From NCBI RefSeq assembly GCF_019931215.1, contig NZ_JAIOUB010000001.1:558001-622000 (forward strand): a DNA stretch of 64,000 bases. The letters are read 5' to 3'. Each line of letters starts with the position of its first letter. Within the stretch, counting starts at the first letter, position 1. The translations under genes and the position numbers were made by a program. This document shows positions 23-8,106 of the stretch, piece by piece. This DNA is from Alcanivorax limicola (GTDB lineage Bacteria; Pseudomonadota; Gammaproteobacteria; Pseudomonadales; Alcanivoracaceae). Below the pieces are notes generated by a model that saw only the letters and a program-made list of their open reading frames with translations, made no database searches and was not told where the DNA came from.

Positions 23-55
23 CTGCCCCGGGTCGCTCAGGCGATCCCGGGGCAG
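23..55 (-). terminator. Strong stem-loop downstream of the fil-like cluster
   Basis: A 10-bp perfect inverted repeat (CTGCCCCGGG at 23-32, CCCGGGGCAG at 46-55) is extended by a TCGC/GCGA inner stem. It lies 17 bases past the stop of the last gene of the minus-strand cluster. No clear U-tract follows on the minus strand, so it may be a transcript-end stabiliser or a weak terminator rather than a classical intrinsic terminator. Confidence 0.5.
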
Positions 56-72
56 CTAGTCAAAACAACGAC

Positions 73-2220
73 TCAGGGACAGGCCACGCCGTCACGCGTG
101 AAGTTCACCAGCCCCTGAAGATTGGACACCAACTGGCGATTGACCTCCGCTTCCGGATCATTGCCGTCCAGATTGCCATAATCGTGATCATCGTCCAGCT
201 CGGCCTGGATCAGCACCGGCCGGTAATTGTCGATCCAGCGGGCGCGAAGGCCGTTCTCGAGCCCTTCTTCGCTGGGCCGCACCAGCGGCAGACCACACTC
301 CTGCAGCGCAATCGCGCCTTCGATGCGAACGCCATACTGGGCGATATTGTCTTCATCCCCCGTCAACAGCATGAAGACCACAGCACCCAGTGAGTCGCCA
401 TCTTCATCATTGACCACGTTACCCACAAAACCGACCGGGAAGCTGTCACCGGGCCCGTCTATGTCCGGGCAGGCGCCGTTCGCCCCGACATATATGATGC
501 CGTTGTCGTTGGCGTCGCGCTGAATCTCAACACAGGTTTCCAGTGGCCCGGTTTCTCCGCCGCCCACGCTGAATGACCCCGGACGCTCCCGTGCAAAATC
601 AAAGCTGAAGGTTACTTCCAGCTCATCCGGCCCACCGTCGGGGTTGACGATCTGGAACCGCACAGGATAATCCGTCTGCTCTTCCTCTGTGATTTCCTCG
701 AAGCACTCCGGCGACTCGCCCCCGTCACCCGGATCGTCCACCGTACAGCCACGCATGATCGTCAGGGTGTAAATGCCTTCGATCTCGTCCAGCACCGCTG
801 CACTCACCGATGCTGAGCCACGCGACGTCCGTCCGCCACGCACAGGCAGCCCTTCCGGCGTGATCGCCGTATCATCCTCGAGCATATCCACCGTATCGTA
901 ACCCAGTATCTGGCCGTCCAGTCTGCCAAAGTCGGGGTCCAGCGGCTCATAACCGTTCAGCTCAGGGCGCAGGAACAACTCGAAGTCCCGCCGTGCGTCC
1001 GTGTCATCGTCTTCATTGGCGCGTCCAGCCACACCACTGAAAACATAATCAGCAAGCACACGCCCATTGAGGTCCATAGACGTGGTATCCATGGCACCCA
1101 GAAGGTTTTCAAAAACGACATTCGTGAAAACCAGCTCATTATTCAGTTCGCCGTCTACCGCCACCAGACCACGCCGTGTCGTCGTCGATGTGCCGGTAGA
1201 GTCAGCCACCAACACCGTCCCCAGCCCCAGCAGTTTGCCGGTAGGCAAGACAAGAAGGTCTGACGTAAACAGGCCAAGAAGCTCAAGATTCGGCGCCTTG
1301 CCGGAGAACAGGTACTCGGCCGCCCCCACAGAGGTATCGTTGTAGCCCAGGCTCAGATTGCCTGCCCGGGTCTGGTCCATGGCGCGCCGCACCTCGGCAA
1401 TATCCGCGCCCGGGTTAGCCGGAAATGCGTAGCGGACTTCCTCGCCTGGTTCATACTCAGGCGCAAGCTCATCGTTCAGTGCATCCAGCAACGGCTGGAA
1501 GCCTGCCGTAAACGTGTTGTAATCCGACGCATCCAGATCCGCAGTGCCGAGCAGTTCTTCGAAGCGGGTATCCACCAGTTCATGCACCAGAGCAGGAATG
1601 CTGATGGGCCCTTCCGTGCCCGCCACGGGATTAACCAGATCATCCGACGGGCTGCCCAGCGCACGCAGCAGCGCCCAGCGATTGCGTACCGCGTTATTAT
1701 TGGCCTGGGGCACCCTGCGCGGGGAATCCACCATATCGGCCAGCGTGACACGCAGGGTCATGCGGCCCTGCTCACGCACCGGTACGGCGGCAGTCCGCGC
1801 ACCGGTCTGTGTCAGTGTAGAGGGGATCAGCACCCGGCCGAACGGCAGGTCAGTGCCCTCGAAAAAGCGGCTGCCGATGAAGAAATCAACCAACTGTGAA
1901 TTGTTCGGACACACTGCGGTATACGGCGGAATAATACGGCCGCTGGAGACCACTTCGAAAGGCTCGGAACGCAACTGGCTGATGGAGTTACCGCATCGAT
2001 AGCGCAGATTTTCCGGTTTGGGGCCGACGACTTCAATGAAGACCTCGCCGACAATATTCTCCTGACAGAGCGCGCCGAAGGCACAGCCGGGCAACCGGAC
2101 ATCGGAAAAATCCTCGCCGCCATTGCAGGCACTGAGCAACAGCCCGGAAACCAGTAGCGCTGCCACGCTGGCAAGCCGTCGCACTGACAATATCTGAGCC
2201 TCACCGGTCGTTATTCTCAT
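73..2220 (-). CDS. filF: Large outer-membrane lipoprotein, FilF-like
   Basis: A predicted 715-residue secreted lipoprotein. The start at 2220 is chosen because it gives a clean lipoprotein signal (LLVSGLLLSAC, lipidated Cys at about residue 32) behind an AGAAGGG ribosome site; the frame stays open further upstream but encodes an Arg-rich stretch without a signal. The mature part is acidic and Gly/Asp/Asn-rich, with scattered Cys pairs and no enzymatic motif I recognise. It is the last gene of a six-gene envelope cluster, about 150 bp after filE, and a stem-loop lies in that gap. Size, lipoprotein nature and terminal position match the protein called FilF in the Acinetobacter fil locus. That assignment comes from order and protein type; the molecular function is unknown. 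Confidence 0.62.
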   Translation of the reverse strand: MRITTGEAQILSVRRLASVAALLVSGLLLSACNGGEDFSDVRLPGCAFGALCQENIVGEVFIEVVGPKPENLRYRCGNSISQLRSEPFEVVSSGRIIPPYTAVCPNNSQLVDFFIGSRFFEGTDLPFGRVLIPSTLTQTGARTAAVPVREQGRMTLRVTLADMVDSPRRVPQANNNAVRNRWALLRALGSPSDDLVNPVAGTEGPISIPALVHELVDTRFEELLGTADLDASDYNTFTAGFQPLLDALNDELAPEYEPGEEVRYAFPANPGADIAEVRRAMDQTRAGNLSLGYNDTSVGAAEYLFSGKAPNLELLGLFTSDLLVLPTGKLLGLGTVLVADSTGTSTTTRRGLVAVDGELNNELVFTNVVFENLLGAMDTTSMDLNGRVLADYVFSGVAGRANEDDDTDARRDFELFLRPELNGYEPLDPDFGRLDGQILGYDTVDMLEDDTAITPEGLPVRGGRTSRGSASVSAAVLDEIEGIYTLTIMRGCTVDDPGDGGESPECFEEITEEEQTDYPVRFQIVNPDGGPDELEVTFSFDFARERPGSFSVGGGETGPLETCVEIQRDANDNGIIYVGANGACPDIDGPGDSFPVGFVGNVVNDEDGDSLGAVVFMLLTGDEDNIAQYGVRIEGAIALQECGLPLVRPSEEGLENGLRARWIDNYRPVLIQAELDDDHDYGNLDGNDPEAEVNRQLVSNLQGLVNFTRDGVACP

Positions 2221-2247
2221 AAAACCCTTCTCATTTGAAGCGTGCTG

Positions 2248-2282
2248 CCGGCGGCGTCCGCGATGGACAGCCGCGCCGCCGG
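2248..2282 (-). repeat. Intercistronic stem-loop between filE and filF
   Basis: CCGGCGGCG (2248-2256) and CGCCGCCGG (2274-2282) form a perfect 9-bp stem around a 17-base loop. It sits in the roughly 150-bp gap between the filE stop and the filF ribosome site. There is no U-tract, so a role in attenuation or mRNA processing is more likely than full termination. This is inference from position only. Confidence 0.45.
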
Positions 2283-2370
2283 TTGAAATTCGTCGGTCTG
2301 TGCTTCTCACATGGCCCGGCACTTTAAACGATACCACCCTGCCCTGGCCACTTTGAGCACCGTTGATCTG

Positions 2371-3300
2371 TTATTCCGTACCGCCCCGTCGTTCTGGTCG
2401 TTGGCGGCCACGCAGGACCACCTCGCCCCGTTGCGTCAACCTGCTGTCCGTCTCGGGAATGAAGCCGGGCGTCTCGTCCGGGGTGTACCCGATATAGACT
2501 ACCAGATAACGATGACCCGGCTCCCGCGGCAGAGTTCCCGTGATATGGGCATAGCGCGACCAGGTCTCCGGATAGCGCCGCGTGAAGAGGCTGTTGATCT
2601 GCAGCACCGGCACAGCGGCATCATCCAGCACCAGCACCTGTGGATGCACATAGCCCTGCCGCCCCTTGAAGCTGGTCATGTCGACGGCAGCCACGTCATC
2701 AGCCAACCGGACGATGCGGGCCGGATAGCGCGCAGTGCCCACCGGCAGCATCACCTCATCCCCCTCGCCAAAGCGCAGCAGTATCTCGCGCCCCGCAGCC
2801 AGCCGCACGGCGTGCTCGGGCATAGCGAGGCAGCAGTCCGCACTGATGGGCGTAACGGTTTCCAGATATCCCTCTGCCACCTCGGCAGCATCGGCTTCAC
2901 TGCCGTCGGCCATGTCCTCATAACCCTGCCCCCGTGCAGTGGCCGCCTTGCGCGCTGCCACGAAGTCCACTGGCTCGCGGACCAACCGGCCGTCGGCATC
3001 AAACCAGGTGATAAAGCGATCACTGTCGTCAATGCCTTCAGGAGAGGCCTGACCCTCTTTGCCGGGCTCTTCACGCACATCGCCCAGCAGGGCGTCGTCC
3101 GCCTCGAGTCCGGCGGGCGCGTCGGGGCGCGAGCGTGCTTCCTGAGGGATATCTTCCGGACCCTTGCGAGCCATCTCGCCGGAGACCAGATTGCCCTGCT
3201 CATCGACATAGGCATAAAAGCCGCCATCGCCCCGATTGCCGGTGCACGCTGCGAGCAGGGATACCGCCAGCACAAGCCACAGACGCCCGGCGCAGGTCAT
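2371..3300 (-). CDS. filE: Lipoprotein with MalM-like C-terminal region, FilE-like
   Basis: A 309-residue lipoprotein with signal and lipobox LLAAC (Cys19). The N-terminal half is acidic, polar and probably disordered. It contains two short DUF4124-like stretches of the type YAYVDEQGNLV and WFDADGRLV. The C-terminal region (about residues 155-290) starts with a DCC motif. It has an alternating beta pattern around HPQVLVLDD and RYLVVYIGYT that resembles the periplasmic MalM family. Its ATG overlaps the filD stop by one base (TGATG), so translation is probably coupled. The position corresponds to filE of the Acinetobacter fil locus. The MalM resemblance is my pattern reading and needs a profile search. 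Confidence 0.6.
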   Translation of the reverse strand: MTCAGRLWLVLAVSLLAACTGNRGDGGFYAYVDEQGNLVSGEMARKGPEDIPQEARSRPDAPAGLEADDALLGDVREEPGKEGQASPEGIDDSDRFITWFDADGRLVREPVDFVAARKAATARGQGYEDMADGSEADAAEVAEGYLETVTPISADCCLAMPEHAVRLAAGREILLRFGEGDEVMLPVGTARYPARIVRLADDVAAVDMTSFKGRQGYVHPQVLVLDDAAVPVLQINSLFTRRYPETWSRYAHITGTLPREPGHRYLVVYIGYTPDETPGFIPETDSRLTQRGEVVLRGRQRPERRGGTE

Positions 3301-4976
3301 CAGAAGCGCGTCCGGAACGCCAGGCCGACCATATTGATGGTGGCCTTGGTTTCAATATCGAGCCCGGCATAAGGGTTGTAGATCACGTTGTTGATCCCGG
3401 TGCAGTTAGCCGCACAGCTGGTGTTGGCCGGGATACTGTCACGGCTGCGCAGCGTCGCAATGGCCACATCAATTTCCGTGTCCTTGTCCCACCGATACCC
3501 CATACCCAGGCTGTAATAGCGTGCCTCATTGATCGGCACCATTGGCGAACGACGGTCCTCAGGGATGGCGGATGCGCGAGGCTCGTAGCCCGCGCGCAGG
3601 CGCAAACGGTCGGTCATGGTGTACTCCGCCCCGAAGGCCAGATTCCAGGTGGATTCATAGCCCAGGGGGAAACTCAGACTGGTCTGGGTGGATTGGGGTG
3701 AAAACAGTCGCGCCAGCGCCAGTGCCGCGTTAGGGCCATCAAACTCGAAATTGAAGGCATCCCACTGCTTGTAGTCTACCCATACGGCATCCACATTGAA
3801 CTGCCAGCGCTCCGTGGCATTGACCTTGATCCCGGTCTGGAAATGCGCGGGCATGGTCAGATCCATGGAAATCATGCCGGTATCCATTTCACCAATGCGC
3901 GAAGGGATACCCAGCACGGCCAGCGCAATAGCACCGGTGGGGCTGCTGCCGATGCCGTTCACCGTTTCCTGAGCCGCATTGGAGTAGCGAATCGAGTACT
4001 TGCCGCGCATGCTCACGTCCACCGGGGCATGCCATACAGCGCCCCAGGCGAACCAGTCGCGGGGCTCCCAGAGCACACCGAGGTTATAGGAGGGGCTGAA
4101 ACGCTGATCCATCTGCACGTCCAGAGACGCCAGGTTCTTGAAGGGACCAAGCCCTTCATCGGGGTTACAGATACCGAAAAGCACGAAATCCAGTGCGAAG
4201 TTGGATTCGCCCTTGAACGGCGCACACAGGCTCTCGTCAATGATCCGCGCAAAACCCAGCAACTCATTGGGCGCACGCATGTCGGTTTCCAGCGCCACCC
4301 CCTGATAGGAGAAGCCGATGGACGCGCCAATCGCCAGCGTATCGTTGACCTGATAACCGACCGAGGGCGACAGGTAGGTAATCCGGTTCAGCGCCACCCG
4401 CCGGCCCATGAAGTTGCCTGCATCGTTATCATCGCGATAAAAGCCCGCCGCCATCGGCAGATAGACTGCAGTCGCAAAGGTAAACTTGGAGCCCGGCGGC
4501 TTGATGGAAAAGGACGGCACCGGGCCGGCAAGCAAGGGCCCGGGCGGCAGATTCACAACATCATTGATGATCGGCAGATACAGCGAAACGCCCTCAATGG
4601 AGCTCTTGCTGGTCTTGAAATCGTTACACACATCGGAACCATTGTTCGGTGCATCTGCACAGACAATCGGGTCGTCGGAGAAACCGAACACGTTATATCC
4701 CGGCGGCGCGCTGAATTCGGATTCAATGCTGAAATCTGCGCCCAGAAACTGCAGGTTCATCTGCCGGCCTTCCAGGCGCGCCAGGCCTGCCGGATTAAAG
4801 TGAATCGACATGATGCCCGGCGGATCCGCCGTTACCGCATGGCCCATACTCATGGCCCGCACATCGATCGCCAGGTTCGTGGCCAGCTGGGCGTGGGCAC
4901 CAATGGATGTCAGCCCCAGCAACAGTGCTGCGGCTGTGTTACTCAGTACCCGGCTCATCATCTTGTTATTCTTCAT
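3300..4976 (-). CDS. filD: FadL/OmpP1-type outer-membrane channel, FilD-like
   Basis: A predicted 558-residue outer-membrane beta-barrel of the OmpP1/FadL/TodX family. I chose the start at 4976 because it gives a good signal peptide (MKNNKMMSRVL to AHA) and lies behind GGCGAGG; the frame is open to 5045, where an ATG overlaps the filC stop. After the signal come the FadL hallmarks: a small-residue N-terminal region with AVTADPPG and the NPAGLA motif, then alternating amphipathic strands ending in Phe (FRTRF), typical of BAM-inserted barrels. FadL proteins usually move hydrophobic molecules across the outer membrane. Here the neighbours suggest a role in a surface-protein system, but lipid or hydrocarbon uptake cannot be excluded. 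Confidence 0.72.
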   Translation of the reverse strand: MKNNKMMSRVLSNTAAALLLGLTSIGAHAQLATNLAIDVRAMSMGHAVTADPPGIMSIHFNPAGLARLEGRQMNLQFLGADFSIESEFSAPPGYNVFGFSDDPIVCADAPNNGSDVCNDFKTSKSSIEGVSLYLPIINDVVNLPPGPLLAGPVPSFSIKPPGSKFTFATAVYLPMAAGFYRDDNDAGNFMGRRVALNRITYLSPSVGYQVNDTLAIGASIGFSYQGVALETDMRAPNELLGFARIIDESLCAPFKGESNFALDFVLFGICNPDEGLGPFKNLASLDVQMDQRFSPSYNLGVLWEPRDWFAWGAVWHAPVDVSMRGKYSIRYSNAAQETVNGIGSSPTGAIALAVLGIPSRIGEMDTGMISMDLTMPAHFQTGIKVNATERWQFNVDAVWVDYKQWDAFNFEFDGPNAALALARLFSPQSTQTSLSFPLGYESTWNLAFGAEYTMTDRLRLRAGYEPRASAIPEDRRSPMVPINEARYYSLGMGYRWDKDTEIDVAIATLRSRDSIPANTSCAANCTGINNVIYNPYAGLDIETKATINMVGLAFRTRF

Positions 4977-5044
4977 TTGACCTCGCCGCCGACGCAGAGA
5001 ACGCAGGTTCTCGCGCCGATATCCCACTTCTGTTGATACCGGCA

Positions 5045-6079
5045 TCAGGCGCCCGGCTTCAGGCCGCTGATATCGATGGGCAGGGAAATGCCCAGCAACA
5101 CATCCGGAGAATCTTCCGTCAGACCAAAGCCGAAACTGATGTTGATGATCCGATTGCTGGAGGTGCGCAAGCCCAGCGAGGTATTGAGGATGCTGGAAGT
5201 GGAATCCTCTGACTTGGCTGTATAGCCGATGCCGTCTTCATCCTCGAAGCGGAAATGGCTGACAAAGTTATAGGATTGCTGGTAGCTCGCACTGACAGAC
5301 ACTTCATAGGAGAGCGCGTAAGCCAGGCCCATTGAGAAACTGAGGCTATCACCGGGCTCAACGCGGCGCAGCGTTTCCTTGCCACGCTGCTGATCAAGCC
5401 CGGTGGCATCAAAGGCCATGGTGTAACCGACAGACCCGAACAGGACGACCGGATCCACCACCTTGCTCATGCTGACGCCACCGCCCAGAGAGTAATAACC
5501 CTTGCCGCTGGACACATCGTTCCGCGCATCAATGGTGTAGGGGCTGTCGCCGGTGGCGGTAGACAACGTCGTGAACAGGGTCGTATTGATACCACCGGGA
5601 CGGACCGGGAACGGCTGGTAGCGCAAACCGAAGGTGATGTCGCCGAGCGAGGCTTTCTGTGCGTCCTTCTCGGTGTCATATTTGTACTGCACCGGCAGCC
5701 GCGTGTTGAATGTCAGGTTATTCCAGATGCCGTAATCAAATGACAACGAGGCGCCGAATGAATGCTCCGCGTCATTCTCGATGCGGAAACGGCTGATTCC
5801 ACCATTATCACCGATCGCAATGTCGATACGATCGTTGCGAAAGTAGCTGTAGTCACCGGAAAAATTCAGCGCCATACCGCCAGAACGCAACAATGAGTAC
5901 TGCCGCTCAGAGGCCTGGAAGACTTCCTCCAGATTACTCTCTTCGGTGGCATCCCCTTCCTGCTGCTGAAGTGCGGCCCGCGCCTCGTCTGCATCATTGT
6001 CTTCAGCCAGCACCTGCACGGACCAGCCCGCCATCATGCCTGCCAGAGCCAGCCATGCGACACCCCGGGAATAATTCAT
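5045..6079 (-). CDS. filC: Outer-membrane beta-barrel protein, FilC-like
   Basis: A 344-residue exported protein with signal peptide MNYSRGVAWLALAG to VLA. The start at 6079 is preferred because GGAAG lies 5-6 bases upstream; an upstream in-frame ATG at 6091 would cover that site. After a short charged, probably helical segment (EARAALQQQ) the rest is a run of amphipathic beta strands with aromatic girdles. It looks like outer-membrane proteins annotated as 'transporter' or MetA-like barrels. No enzyme motif is visible. It is the third gene of the fil-like cluster, 58 bp after filB, and its stop overlaps an in-frame ATG of filD. The family call is moderate and the function unknown. Confidence 0.6.
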   Translation of the reverse strand: MNYSRGVAWLALAGMMAGWSVQVLAEDNDADEARAALQQQEGDATEESNLEEVFQASERQYSLLRSGGMALNFSGDYSYFRNDRIDIAIGDNGGISRFRIENDAEHSFGASLSFDYGIWNNLTFNTRLPVQYKYDTEKDAQKASLGDITFGLRYQPFPVRPGGINTTLFTTLSTATGDSPYTIDARNDVSSGKGYYSLGGGVSMSKVVDPVVLFGSVGYTMAFDATGLDQQRGKETLRRVEPGDSLSFSMGLAYALSYEVSVSASYQQSYNFVSHFRFEDEDGIGYTAKSEDSTSSILNTSLGLRTSSNRIINISFGFGLTEDSPDVLLGISLPIDISGLKPGA

Positions 6080-6137
6080 ATCAGCTTCCATTTGTTATTA
6101 TCGTTTTCAGATTCTGAATCTATTTTTCGACGACGTT

Positions 6138-6950
6138 CTATTTTCGACGGAAGTAGGTCCGCGTGGGCACATTGATCACGCGCTCCACATCGTCATCATC
6201 GGTAATCAATACGGCGTTCAACGTCCCCGCTTTATCGGCCCACTGCTCCATGGGACGGGTGAAAACCGGAAACTCCCTGAACGCCAGTTGATTGATGGTC
6301 TGTTCATCAATCATGCGCAGATCATAGTCGGTCAGCTCCAGATCCTGCTGCGGCTCGAACCCGTTCGGGAACACGATAAAGAGCACATTCTGTTCCCAGA
6401 CTTCCTCGAACTTGGATTCGGTAAAACTGATATTTCCCAGGGCCGGATCGGCGACATGGATGTGCCCGTCACGGTATTCCCGCAACACCACGAAGTGTTT
6501 GAAACCGCCATAGGAGATCGGCACGATGGCCGGGTGATCCAGTGTCCGGAGATCCTTGATCTCAGCCCGGAAGCCACCGCTGGGGTGCCCCAGCGCGGTC
6601 GCCAGACGGCGCATGTCCAGCAACGAAAAGCCGCGACGCTCGATAATGCGCTCCCGCTCGCCAAAGCGCAGCAGCCCCTCCATGATCTGCCGCTCCTCGA
6701 ACTGGCGTCCCAGGTAGTGGTTCAGAATGGTGGTGAGCGCAGCAGAACCGCAGGAATAGTCGTAGGCCTGACGCACGACGTTCCGATACCGGAACTCGGA
6801 AACAGGTTTGACAAGGATATCGCGCTCGACGACGGGCCCCTGCTGGGTCGGGTGCTCATAGTGCACATACCCGGTCGGGTAGTCCTCGACCACGGTGGCC
6901 TGATTGACCGCGAAAAAGATCAGGGCGACGCCCATTACCGCTACAAGCAT
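6138..6950 (-). CDS. filB: Membrane-anchored C39-type cysteine peptidase, FilB-like
   Basis: A 270-residue protein with an N-terminal hydrophobic helix (residues 1-18) and a C39 double-glycine-peptidase fold. Visible catalytic residues are Gln61 and Cys67 in QAYDYSCGSAAL, His152 in FKHFVVL and Asp168 in HVADPALGN, so the full triad plus oxyanion Gln is present. C39 domains normally sit at the N-terminus of ABC exporters and cut leader peptides after Gly-Gly. Here the domain stands alone, is probably held in the inner membrane facing the periplasm, and no ABC transporter is adjacent. A stop codon just upstream supports the chosen start; the ribosome site is weak. Its position matches FilB of Acinetobacter. 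The substrate is unknown; other fil products are candidates. Confidence 0.72.
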   Translation of the reverse strand: MLVAVMGVALIFFAVNQATVVEDYPTGYVHYEHPTQQGPVVERDILVKPVSEFRYRNVVRQAYDYSCGSAALTTILNHYLGRQFEERQIMEGLLRFGERERIIERRGFSLLDMRRLATALGHPSGGFRAEIKDLRTLDHPAIVPISYGGFKHFVVLREYRDGHIHVADPALGNISFTESKFEEVWEQNVLFIVFPNGFEPQQDLELTDYDLRMIDEQTINQLAFREFPVFTRPMEQWADKAGTLNAVLITDDDDVERVINVPTRTYFRRK

Positions 6951-7278
6951 CCAGGATGCCCTTTTTTATTGTCTTTTATTGTTATGCCTGCCGGTCTGGC
7001 CTGTCGTCGCCGCTGTTACCGCTGCGATCAACCTGCCTGCCTGTCACAGGTTCCTGATATTCGGAGAATATGTGATCTGTATCGTAACCCATCTTTACAC
7101 AGGTTTGCACAGCCCCCGTCAAACGACACCAATTGTTGCCTGTTTGTAGCCCAATCTCAAGCCCCGTGATGCACGGATGCTTTGTCACCGGAGGCCACCA
7201 CGGCATCCGTAGCGGTCAGTACGCAGAAGGCCCGGCATATGCCGGGCCTTCTGCTAAGCACAGACTATCTTCCAGAAC
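6951..7278 (-). other. 328-bp filA-filB intergenic region
   Basis: No gene is seen here. It contains a perfect 14-bp stem-loop near the filA end (7223-7254). Just upstream of filB, a short AT-rich stretch holds two copies of ACAATAAAA (on the minus strand). It could hold a separate filB promoter, or be a long leader that lowers expression of filBCDEF relative to filA. Confidence 0.5.
7223..7254 (-). repeat. Perfect 14-bp stem-loop after filA
   Basis: GCAGAAGGCCCGGC (7223-7236) and GCCGGGCCTTCTGC (7241-7254) are perfect complements around an ATAT loop. It lies 24 bases past the filA stop. No U-tract follows on the minus strand. The likely role is partial termination or 3'-end protection of the filA message; this is inferred from position. 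Confidence 0.65.
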
Positions 7279-8106
7279 TTACTTACCGGAAATGGTAATG
7301 GTCTGGTTGGACATGTTCAGGCCGGTAACGTAAACGTTGCCCAGTGACGCAGAAGCAGCGTCGCCCAGTGTCAGGCCCATCATCGCCAAGTCAATATTGC
7401 CCAGTGCGGCGTTGGTCGAAATCTCCAGGCCGTTGGTGGTGATATTGGCGGTCAGGCCGTCGAGGTCGATGTTACGGATCGCAATCTGGTCGAGGATGAC
7501 AGAACCACCACCGTTGGCGCCCTGGTCGTTGAGCTGGAAGTTATCAGCCGCGTTCCCCAGTTCACCAATATTGATATCAAACGCAGAGGACGTATTGATT
7601 GACAGGAAGTTGTCAGCCCCCTCGCCCAGCTCGATACCCAGGCTCAGATCGTTCAGGGTAATCGACACGTTCTCGATCAGTGCGTCAGCCGGATCAGCCG
7701 CAGCAGCCAGTGCAGCGACGTTGGCCAGACCCGCGTCAACGTCGGTGCCATCAGTACCGGCAACAACGTAGATATCCCCGGTTTCCAGCGTCAGCGTCGG
7801 GATCTCGACGCCAATGCGCAGCACGCTGCCGTTAGCGTTGGTACCGGCATCAATATCCAGATTCACGGTACCGTTGAGGGCGTGGCCAACCAGCAGGATC
7901 ATACCCGCATCCGGCGCGGAGGCATGGCCGTCAGTATCTTCGATACCGACGTTCAGTGTAGCGTCAAGCTGCAGGCCGATACGAATACCGTCCTGACCTG
8001 TTACCCCGGACAACGCTTCGTCATCCATCGCCTGCATGGCAAAGCCGGTCATCGGCATGGCGGCAATAGCTGAAACGAGAGCAAGTTTCCTGAAATTCTT
8101 CATCAT
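7279..8106 (-). CDS. filA: Secreted DUF6160-like surface protein with SGVTGQDG motif, FilA-like
   Basis: About 275 residues with a signal peptide (MKNFRKLALVSAIAAMPMTGFA). The start is one of two adjacent ATGs (8106 or 8103), 6-9 bases after GGAG; the ATG at 8118 would precede that site. Directly after the predicted cleavage site comes DDEALSGVTGQDGI, the signature I associate with DUF6160/FilA-type proteins. The rest is acidic, rich in Asn, Asp, Gly, Leu and Ile, contains no Cys or Trp, and shows repeating short beta-like segments (ISINTSS-, LGNIDLAM-, LGNVYVTGL-type). This suggests a beta-rich secreted or surface protein. It is first in the cluster, separated from filB by a hairpin and 328 bp, as expected for a highly expressed substrate gene. 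Confidence 0.68.
   Translation of the reverse strand: MMKNFRKLALVSAIAAMPMTGFAMQAMDDEALSGVTGQDGIRIGLQLDATLNVGIEDTDGHASAPDAGMILLVGHALNGTVNLDIDAGTNANGSVLRIGVEIPTLTLETGDIYVVAGTDGTDVDAGLANVAALAAAADPADALIENVSITLNDLSLGIELGEGADNFLSINTSSAFDINIGELGNAADNFQLNDQGANGGGSVILDQIAIRNIDLDGLTANITTNGLEISTNAALGNIDLAMMGLTLGDAASASLGNVYVTGLNMSNQTITISGK

Follow-up and report, generated by a model that had tools for sequence, protein, structure and literature searches.

The fil cluster of Alcanivorax limicola: a probable pilus-assembly pathway with a C39-type leader on its subunit

What does the fil cluster assemble, and how do its products leave the cell? In Alcanivorax limicola, six co-directional open reading frames (ORFs), filA to filF, lie on the minus strand between positions 73 and 8103 of a 64,000-nt stretch of contig NZ_JAIOUB010000001.1 (hereafter, the window), where the initial annotation had placed them. 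These genes share their families and their A-to-F order with Acinetobacter filABCDEF, the 'putative pilus system' of NCBIfam. We consider it probable that fil is a pilus-assembly pathway, in which subunits bearing a C39-type leader are cut by the peptidase FilB, exit through the outer-membrane barrel FilC and polymerise. The name fil, the label 'putative pilus' and the pairing of FapD with FapF in the Fap amyloid system are already known. The initial annotation was incomplete in that it had missed the relationship to FapD and FapF, the leader on FilA and eight further leader proteins encoded in this genome.

A C39-like leader on FilA and on proteins encoded elsewhere

Directly after its signal peptide, FilA carries the segment MQAMDDEALSGVTGQ, which is followed by Asp-Gly-Ile. 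When the last residue of this segment, Gln, is numbered -1, FilA has Met at -12, Leu at -7, Val at -4 and Gly at -2. The residues read by C39 peptidases are Leu -12, Leu -7 and Val -4, and their cut falls behind a Gly-Gly, Gly-Ala or Gly-Ser pair (PMC6363468; this and the other papers cited by PMC number were available in part, and statements taken from them refer to those parts). The segment follows the C39 substrate rule of hydrophobic -12, -7 and -4 and Gly -2. In an alignment of 85 unique N-terminal segments from many genomes, position -15 is Leu or Met (82/85), -10 is Asp or Glu (84/85) and -3 is Thr (72/85); these three positions were unconstrained by the anchor pattern, which demanded broadly hydrophobic residues at -12, -7 and -4 and Gly at -2. 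Gln occupies -1 in 79 of the 85 segments, with the anchor preferring Gln where a choice existed, and some leader types outside the fil locus have Ala, Thr or Glu there. Of 104 profile matches, two without the anchor pattern were excluded from the position counts. In 64 of 79 leader proteins, position -1 lies 36-38 residues from the likely start Met, with five more being unassignable. Matches to TIGR03898 (mersacidin double-glycine leader) were suggestive only (E = 0.17 for one of eight peptides and 0.019 for one of eight leader proteins outside fil), and DUF6160 was the only Pfam leader family matched.

In total, nine leader proteins encoded at three loci were identified in this genome (E = 1e-19 to 3e-14 with a profile of the nine N-termini; next match, 0.13). 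The eight proteins other than FilA are encoded by two operons of four genes (L010 5178-10817 and L011 7474-13308), each specifying four exported proteins of ~215, 370-430, 520-585 and 710-775 amino acids (aa). None of these eight matched a Pfam family other than DUF6160 at E <= 0.1, and one of eight leader proteins of this type, compared with the PDB, gave no match at E <= 1. In other genomes, many of 20 fetched leader loci outside fil hold two to four leader genes; in one of the 20 (L187), the motif scan found none. The passengers of 69 leader proteins fell into 12 clusters (blastp, 1e-5), some of which are possibly related at greater distance. As a control, the motif scan was applied to the 1257 ORFs of 80 loci around FilB and yielded 29 matches, i.e. 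23 leader genes of fil loci and 6 apparently unrelated ORFs, and FilA was the sole match among 56 ORFs of the window. The scan is not fully sensitive: it recovered 23 leader genes, whereas leader genes were found by profile in 45 of the 80 loci.

Relatives of FilA share homology with the subunit of PDB 9XFV, a solved filament that is described as a "bacteria pilus (like)" from a karst cave sample and has a chain of 173 residues. One Pseudomonas FilA matched this chain at 5e-5. A profile (A5) built from 15 of the 17 Pseudomonas FilA sequences in the 80 loci matched it at 4.7e-13 (next match, 1.1), and another (A6), made from 14 longer relatives that belong to three other families, at 7.1e-8 (next match, 0.38). 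The family of the window FilA aligns with both sets (99.2 and 99.5% probability), with the leader and signal peptide contributing to these values. The 9XFV chain starts with D-G-V-S-I, and its residue 1 (Asp) aligns with the residue that follows Gly-Gln; the aligned range, 38..210 in the numbering of the entry, has the same length as the 173-residue chain. In the window FilA, Asp38 also stands directly after GQ. The cut is placed after Gln because Gly is numbered -2, and this had been set before the 9XFV match came up. The window FilA itself is linked to the filament subunit through its relatives, together with a modest fold match. Since FilA relatives are homologous to the 9XFV subunit, the cluster is not pilin-less, contrary to the initial annotation; its statement that usher and chaperone homologues are lacking agrees with the absence of any usher or PapD-like chaperone match at E <= 1 (Pfam and NCBIfam) among the six proteins, the rest of the genome being unsearched for them. 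No publication on 9XFV was found in a literature search whose scope largely excluded subscription papers.

The AlphaFold model of FilA (predicted local distance difference test score [pLDDT], 84.6; residues counted from 8106, where a second ATG is a possible alternative start) is of low confidence to about residue 39, and the fold begins at residue 41, right after GQDG, with a long beta strand spanning residues 41-57 and pLDDT mostly >90 from residue 41. Foldseek returned nothing at E <= 0.001 for this model. Among rows that were set aside, the sole PDB match of the profile that includes the window FilA (A2; E = 1.9) was regarded as chance, and the top VIA rows for FilA, mostly outer-membrane barrels (Z 5-8, 2-10% identity), were taken as common beta arrangements.

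The conserved N-terminal segment might instead serve only to cap the beta domain structurally, with no relation to FilB, and Gly +2 and Ile or Val +3, on the far side of the proposed cut, are indeed conserved as well. We regard this explanation as very improbable: the segment precedes passengers without detectable blastp similarity to each other, is modelled with low confidence, is absent from the solved 9XFV chain and tracks FilB across genomes.

FilB, FilC and the Fap export pair

FilB matches the NCBIfam FilB model (E = 1.8e-89; 299.8 bits against a curated cut-off of 475) and Pfam Peptidase_C39 (E = 4.5e-20), and its best PDB match is 6mpz, a double-glycine motif protease domain (1.3e-5). 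Gln61, Cys67, His152 and Asp168 are invariant in all 21 aligned sequences, including that of the window, and the Gln-Cys (6) and His-Asp (16) spacings equal those of LahT Gln21/Cys27/His101/Asp117. FilB possesses the C39 Gln/Cys/His/Asp catalytic set, and a separate, periplasm-facing C39 peptidase is present, as the initial annotation had stated. Two further ORFs with a C39 fold are present in the same genome at C1:1114427-1114807 (L210) and C4:157705-158079 (L211).

The catalytic residues bear on another reading of the leader, namely an uncut docking or targeting helix that is read by FilB or FilC, with FilB acting as a chaperone like some C39-like domains. Gln at P1 is unusual for a C39 substrate and both sides of the supposed cut are conserved, as this reading would allow, but the catalytic residues are invariant, the 9XFV chain lacks the leader, and the leader lies outside the folded domain in the FilA model. 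An uncut helix is therefore judged unlikely, and cleavage by FilB is retained as the preferred reading.

FilC matches the NCBIfam FilC model (E = 1.5e-105; 353.6 bits against a curated cut-off of 630), the first 72 profile positions not being covered. The second NCBIfam matches of FilB and FilC are FapD (1.1e-32) and FapF (7.2e-21), respectively, both under the cut-offs of those models. In the PDB, FilC matches FapF (5o65, 5o67 and 5o68; 6e-15 to 1e-14) and nothing else at E <= 10. In Pseudomonas, FapC secretion requires the active-site Cys of FapD, a C39 protease of the periplasm whose target has been called unclear or yet to be determined (PMC5557850, PMC6173800); canonical C39 sequences are stated to be missing from the Fap proteins (PMC5557850). 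The FapD-FapF pair is an already known module, because homologues of fapD and fapF had earlier been reported to lie together in a further five phyla (PMC6173800). At least 554 FilB relatives are known, some of which are perhaps FapD-type. The FapF-like genes of three genomes of one family (G054, G082 and G170; f18) each contain one in-frame TAG.

The relationship to FapD and FapF raises the alternative that Fil is a Fap-type functional amyloid, with FilA being secreted unfolded by FilC and forming amyloid in the matrix. The over-expression of FilF in Acinetobacter baumannii pellicles (PMC3203104) would also suit this alternative. However, a pattern search of mature FilA found neither the published Fap repeat nor NQQ (motif from PMC5557850; a FapB/FapC profile was not run), its Asn plus Gln content is 11.8%, and FilA is predicted to be a folded beta domain with relatives that match a pilus-like filament. 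FapD and FapF are the only Fap models matched by the six proteins, the library content of FapB/FapC models being unchecked. In eight FapD-type loci, no credible leader protein was found; two motif matches, both in one locus (L195), do not resemble one, and because the scan is of incomplete sensitivity this result is weaker than proof of absence. Altogether, we consider an amyloid improbable, and prefer a pilus-assembly pathway that shares its export pair with Fap.

The initial annotation had raised the possibility of an export or surface-display pathway that uses the FadL-type protein, FilD. FilC is, by its family, the likely export pore rather than FilD, because it is a FapF homologue, while no FilD was found in 1 of the 25 fil genomes and FilD relatives occur in 11 genomes that have no fil. 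FilD was kept as a possible export channel, but FilC is better placed. FilD matches the NCBIfam FilD model (E = 9.2e-237; 786.6 bits against a curated cut-off of 970) and Pfam Toluene_X (E = 1.6e-68), with a secondary match to the PorV/PorQ family (7.6e-11, under its cut-off). PorV has a role in type IX secretion.

FilA matches NCBIfam NF050077 (E = 2.2e-39; 135.6 bits against a curated cut-off of 220) and Pfam DUF6160 (E = 1.5e-14). FilA to FilD can be assigned to the fil families by these matches, all of which fall under the curated cut-offs; the NCBIfam fil models presumably rest on Acinetobacter. Direct matches of the window FilE and FilF to their own NCBIfam models were absent, and their assignment to the fil families comes through relatives only: pilus_FilE was matched by 8 of 32 aligned FilE relatives (best, 1e-82) and pilus_FilF by 1 of 15 FilF relatives (1.8e-59). 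Among the 32 FilE members, MalM was detected in 23 and DUF4124 in 14 (Pfam, E <= 0.1), and the MalM match of the window FilE is weak (E = 0.01). The FilE structure model (pLDDT 77.8) has collagenase PPC/collagen-binding jelly rolls as its top fold matches; this fold search was set aside, the matches being generic jelly rolls. No Pfam family was found for FilF. As the initial annotation had stated, no secretion ATPase was matched among the six proteins (NCBIfam and Pfam).

Co-occurrence, gene order and layout of the locus

Among 195 genomes of the order, strong FilB matches (at least 174 bits), strong FilC matches and DUF6160 matches over the cut-off were found in the same 25 genomes. The association of 25/25 versus 0/170 corresponds to a plain p value of 4e-32, which ignores shared ancestry and overstates the case because the genomes are related. 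Joint changes of FilB and DUF6160 within genera and families are more telling. Among the matches listed, one genome of genus g21 (G017) lacks both and five others have both, two genomes of genus g51 (G131 and G190) lack both and one (G171) has both, and four g2 genomes of family f1 lack both. Eight more of the 195 genomes contain only weaker, FapD-like FilB matches (49-125 bits), without DUF6160, and a sub-cut-off DUF6160 match in G052 was not counted, the ORF being without a leader. In an overlapping sample of 299 genomes of the phylum, nine have strong FilB, i.e. eight already counted and one new (G386), and over-cut-off DUF6160 matches occur in the same nine and in G284. The leader-type gene of G284 (L199 6411-6908) is situated near a contig end, in a genome that is 90% complete. 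A reduced system was seen in G014 (L201-L203), where FilB and FilC are divergent, FilD was not found, and the leader proteins, encoded elsewhere, are short (130-159 aa).

FilD is present in 24 of the 25 fil genomes and in 11 other genomes, several of which have ~6 copies; genomes of family f26 without fil have at least about six FilD-like FadL genes each. A hydrocarbon or other hydrophobic-compound uptake system, in which the FadL-type FilD, the COG4313-related FilC and surface proteins gather hydrocarbons, might be suspected from the membership of FilD in the FadL family and from the hosts, which include Alcanivorax and Marinobacter, both of which are hydrocarbon degraders. FapF, moreover, resembles COG4313 uptake channels (PMC6173800). 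Uptake nevertheless leaves the C39 peptidase, the leader and the pilus-subunit match unexplained, the cluster is also found in Pseudomonas and Moraxellaceae, and one fil genome has no detected FilD; we therefore regard uptake as a most unlikely function, and pilus assembly as the probable one.

The B-C-D order is kept in 78 of the 80 loci around FilB, and the other two reach a contig end. The B-C-D-E order is found in 73; of the remaining seven, four are at a contig end and one (L122) has D and E in one long ORF. A filF gene was detected in 17 of the 80 loci, and a leader gene within the fetched flanks of FilB in 45; no leader gene was detected within 10 kb in the Marinobacter loci. FilF is confined to particular lineages, and the FilB-C-D core often lacks a linked FilA. 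The expectation of the initial annotation that the genes co-occur elsewhere was thus borne out for the widespread B-C-D core, whereas the six-gene set is not a conserved unit, because FilF was detected in only 17 loci. In two relatives, other large lipoproteins occupy the place of FilF (L071 3430-5283 and L076 3870-5780), and the FilF profile does not match them. The closest named relative among the 80 loci is an Alcanivorax metagenome-assembled genome, with a FilB that is 96% identical.

The features of the window locus are listed in Table 1. The starts of filC, filD and filF are ATG codons chosen downstream of the first possible ORF start. The intergenic distances are 328 bp (A-B), 58 bp (B-C), 68 bp (C-D), none (D-E) and 150 bp (E-F). 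Export signals were recognised at all six N-termini, by eye and without a signal-peptide program, in agreement with the initial view of six exported products: cleavable signal peptides in FilA, FilC and FilD, an N-terminal membrane anchor in FilB, and lipoboxes in FilE (LAAC) and FilF (LSAC). The palindrome in the filA-filB gap is possibly a transcript-processing or attenuation hairpin, and may provide filA with a transcript of its own that is more abundant. A T run is not present after it, and the terminator scan did not call it an intrinsic terminator; promoter and terminator scans of the locus performed no better than on shuffled sequence.

Table 1. Coordinates of the fil genes and associated features in the window
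Feature	Position	Strand	Description
filA	7279..8103	-	274 aa; DUF6160/FilA family, major subunit candidate; signal peptide, 15-residue leader and folded beta domain
FilA signal peptide	8038..8103	-	Residues 1-22 (..TGFA/M), by eye; low confidence in structure model
FilA leader	7993..8037	-	Residues 23-37, MQAMDDEALSGVTGQ
Predicted FilB cut in filA	between codons ending 7993 and starting 7992	-	GQ/DG
Palindrome	7223..7254	none	Perfect, 32 nt, in filA-filB gap
filB	6138..6950	-	270 aa; membrane-anchored, periplasm-facing C39 cysteine peptidase; Q61, C67, H152, D168
filC	5045..6079	-	344 aa; FapF-type outer-membrane barrel, likely export pore
filD	3300..4976	-	558 aa; FadL/OmpP1-type outer-membrane protein
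filE	2371..3300	-	309 aa; lipoprotein, C-terminal MalM-like jelly roll; N-terminal DUF4124 domain in some members
filF	73..2220	-	715 aa; large lineage-specific lipoprotein, on the basis of its lipobox

Proposed pathway and comparison with known systems

In the pathway that we propose, Sec would export all six products, and signal peptidase would remove residues 1-22 of FilA, so that the mature end starts with the 15-residue leader. From its anchor in the inner membrane, the periplasm-facing FilB would grip the hydrophobic side chains of the leader at -12, -7 and -4 and cut FilA after Gly-Gln, and the freed subunit would cross the outer membrane through the FapF-type FilC. FilD may dock the subunits or the pore, and the lipoprotein FilE may hold the assembly. 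Outside the cell, the subunits would polymerise, the new N-terminal strand of each probably completing its neighbour; N-terminal strand exchange has reportedly been seen by CryoSeek in pond fibrils. FilF and the eight other leader proteins are candidates for an anchor, a tip or minor subunits, or for other surface cargo.

Several points weigh against this pathway. The C39 rule of Gly, Ala or Ser at -1 is not followed, P1 being Gln in 79 of 85 segments, and conservation runs past the cut (Gly +2 in 80/85), unlike in typical C39 substrates. The A2 profile has no 9XFV match at E <= 10, and the fold comparison of the FilA model with 9XFV is modest: it is the second Foldseek match (E = 0.07), and in VIA it has a Z of 6.0 and a root-mean-square deviation of 2.8 over 95 residues at 21% identity, tenth in the list and below several unrelated barrels. 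The start of the 9XFV chain may reflect what was modelled rather than the N-terminus. The distant genome G284 has a leader gene, with FilB not found, and the FilB frame of G386 contains a stop. FilB is not the sole C39 fold in the genome, as two more ORFs score above the Pfam cut-off. No experimental work on the cleavage or export of Fil proteins was found in the literature.

More tentatively, Fil may represent a distinct class of pilus, in which a second leader, exposed after Sec export and cut by a periplasmic C39 peptidase, licenses many proteins from several loci to pass a FapF-type pore and enter one composite fibre; we give this somewhat less than even weight. If true, the 9XFV filament could be assigned to a gene family, and FapD-type periplasmic C39 peptidases would have a first clear substrate. 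Apart from this bolder reading, the findings tie a widespread putative pilus cluster to a solved filament. In Fil, a relative of FapD is accompanied by a visible leader, and the cut is predicted to the residue, which turns the question of the FapD substrate into a simple test. The leader can also serve as a sequence tag for listing cargo in other genomes. These include Pseudomonas and, going by the FilA model of NCBIfam, probably also Acinetobacter, in which a role of the appendage in biofilm is possible.

Within the literature search described above, no account was found of the leader, the likely FilB substrate, the tagged proteins encoded at other loci or the 9XFV link. For Acinetobacter fil, the literature that was found describes, in the parts available, neither the leader, the FilB substrate and tagged proteins outside fil nor a mechanism; it deals with FilF mainly as an antigen or adhesin, including as a vaccine antigen (PMC4751259), and DUF6160 is merely listed in one paper. 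The Fap system of Pseudomonas (FapA-F) resembles Fil in having a C39 peptidase and a FapF-type barrel and in the Sec-dependent export of its components (PMC5557850), which for Fil is suggested by the signal peptides. Fil differs in that FilA has a C39-like leader in place of the Fap repeat motif, whereas canonical C39 sequences are reported to be lacking in Fap proteins (PMC5557850), and in its extra FadL-type and MalM-type partners. The 9XFV filament shares with Fil the homology to the FilA family and a chain that begins at the predicted cut. In the type V pili of Bacteroidetes, a protease likewise removes an N-terminal segment before polymerisation, but the protease, the lipoprotein route and the subunit family are different. 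Chaperone-usher pili differ from Fil in their usher and PapD-like chaperone, neither of which was matched among the six Fil proteins. LahT and ComA, of the peptidase-containing ATP-binding cassette (ABC) transporters, share with Fil the C39 fold and a leader with hydrophobic -12, -7 and -4 and Gly -2 (PMC6363468). In these transporters, the peptidase domain is cytoplasmic and forms part of the ABC exporter, whereas FilB is a separate protein that is predicted to face the periplasm and to act after Sec, on a leader with Gln at P1.

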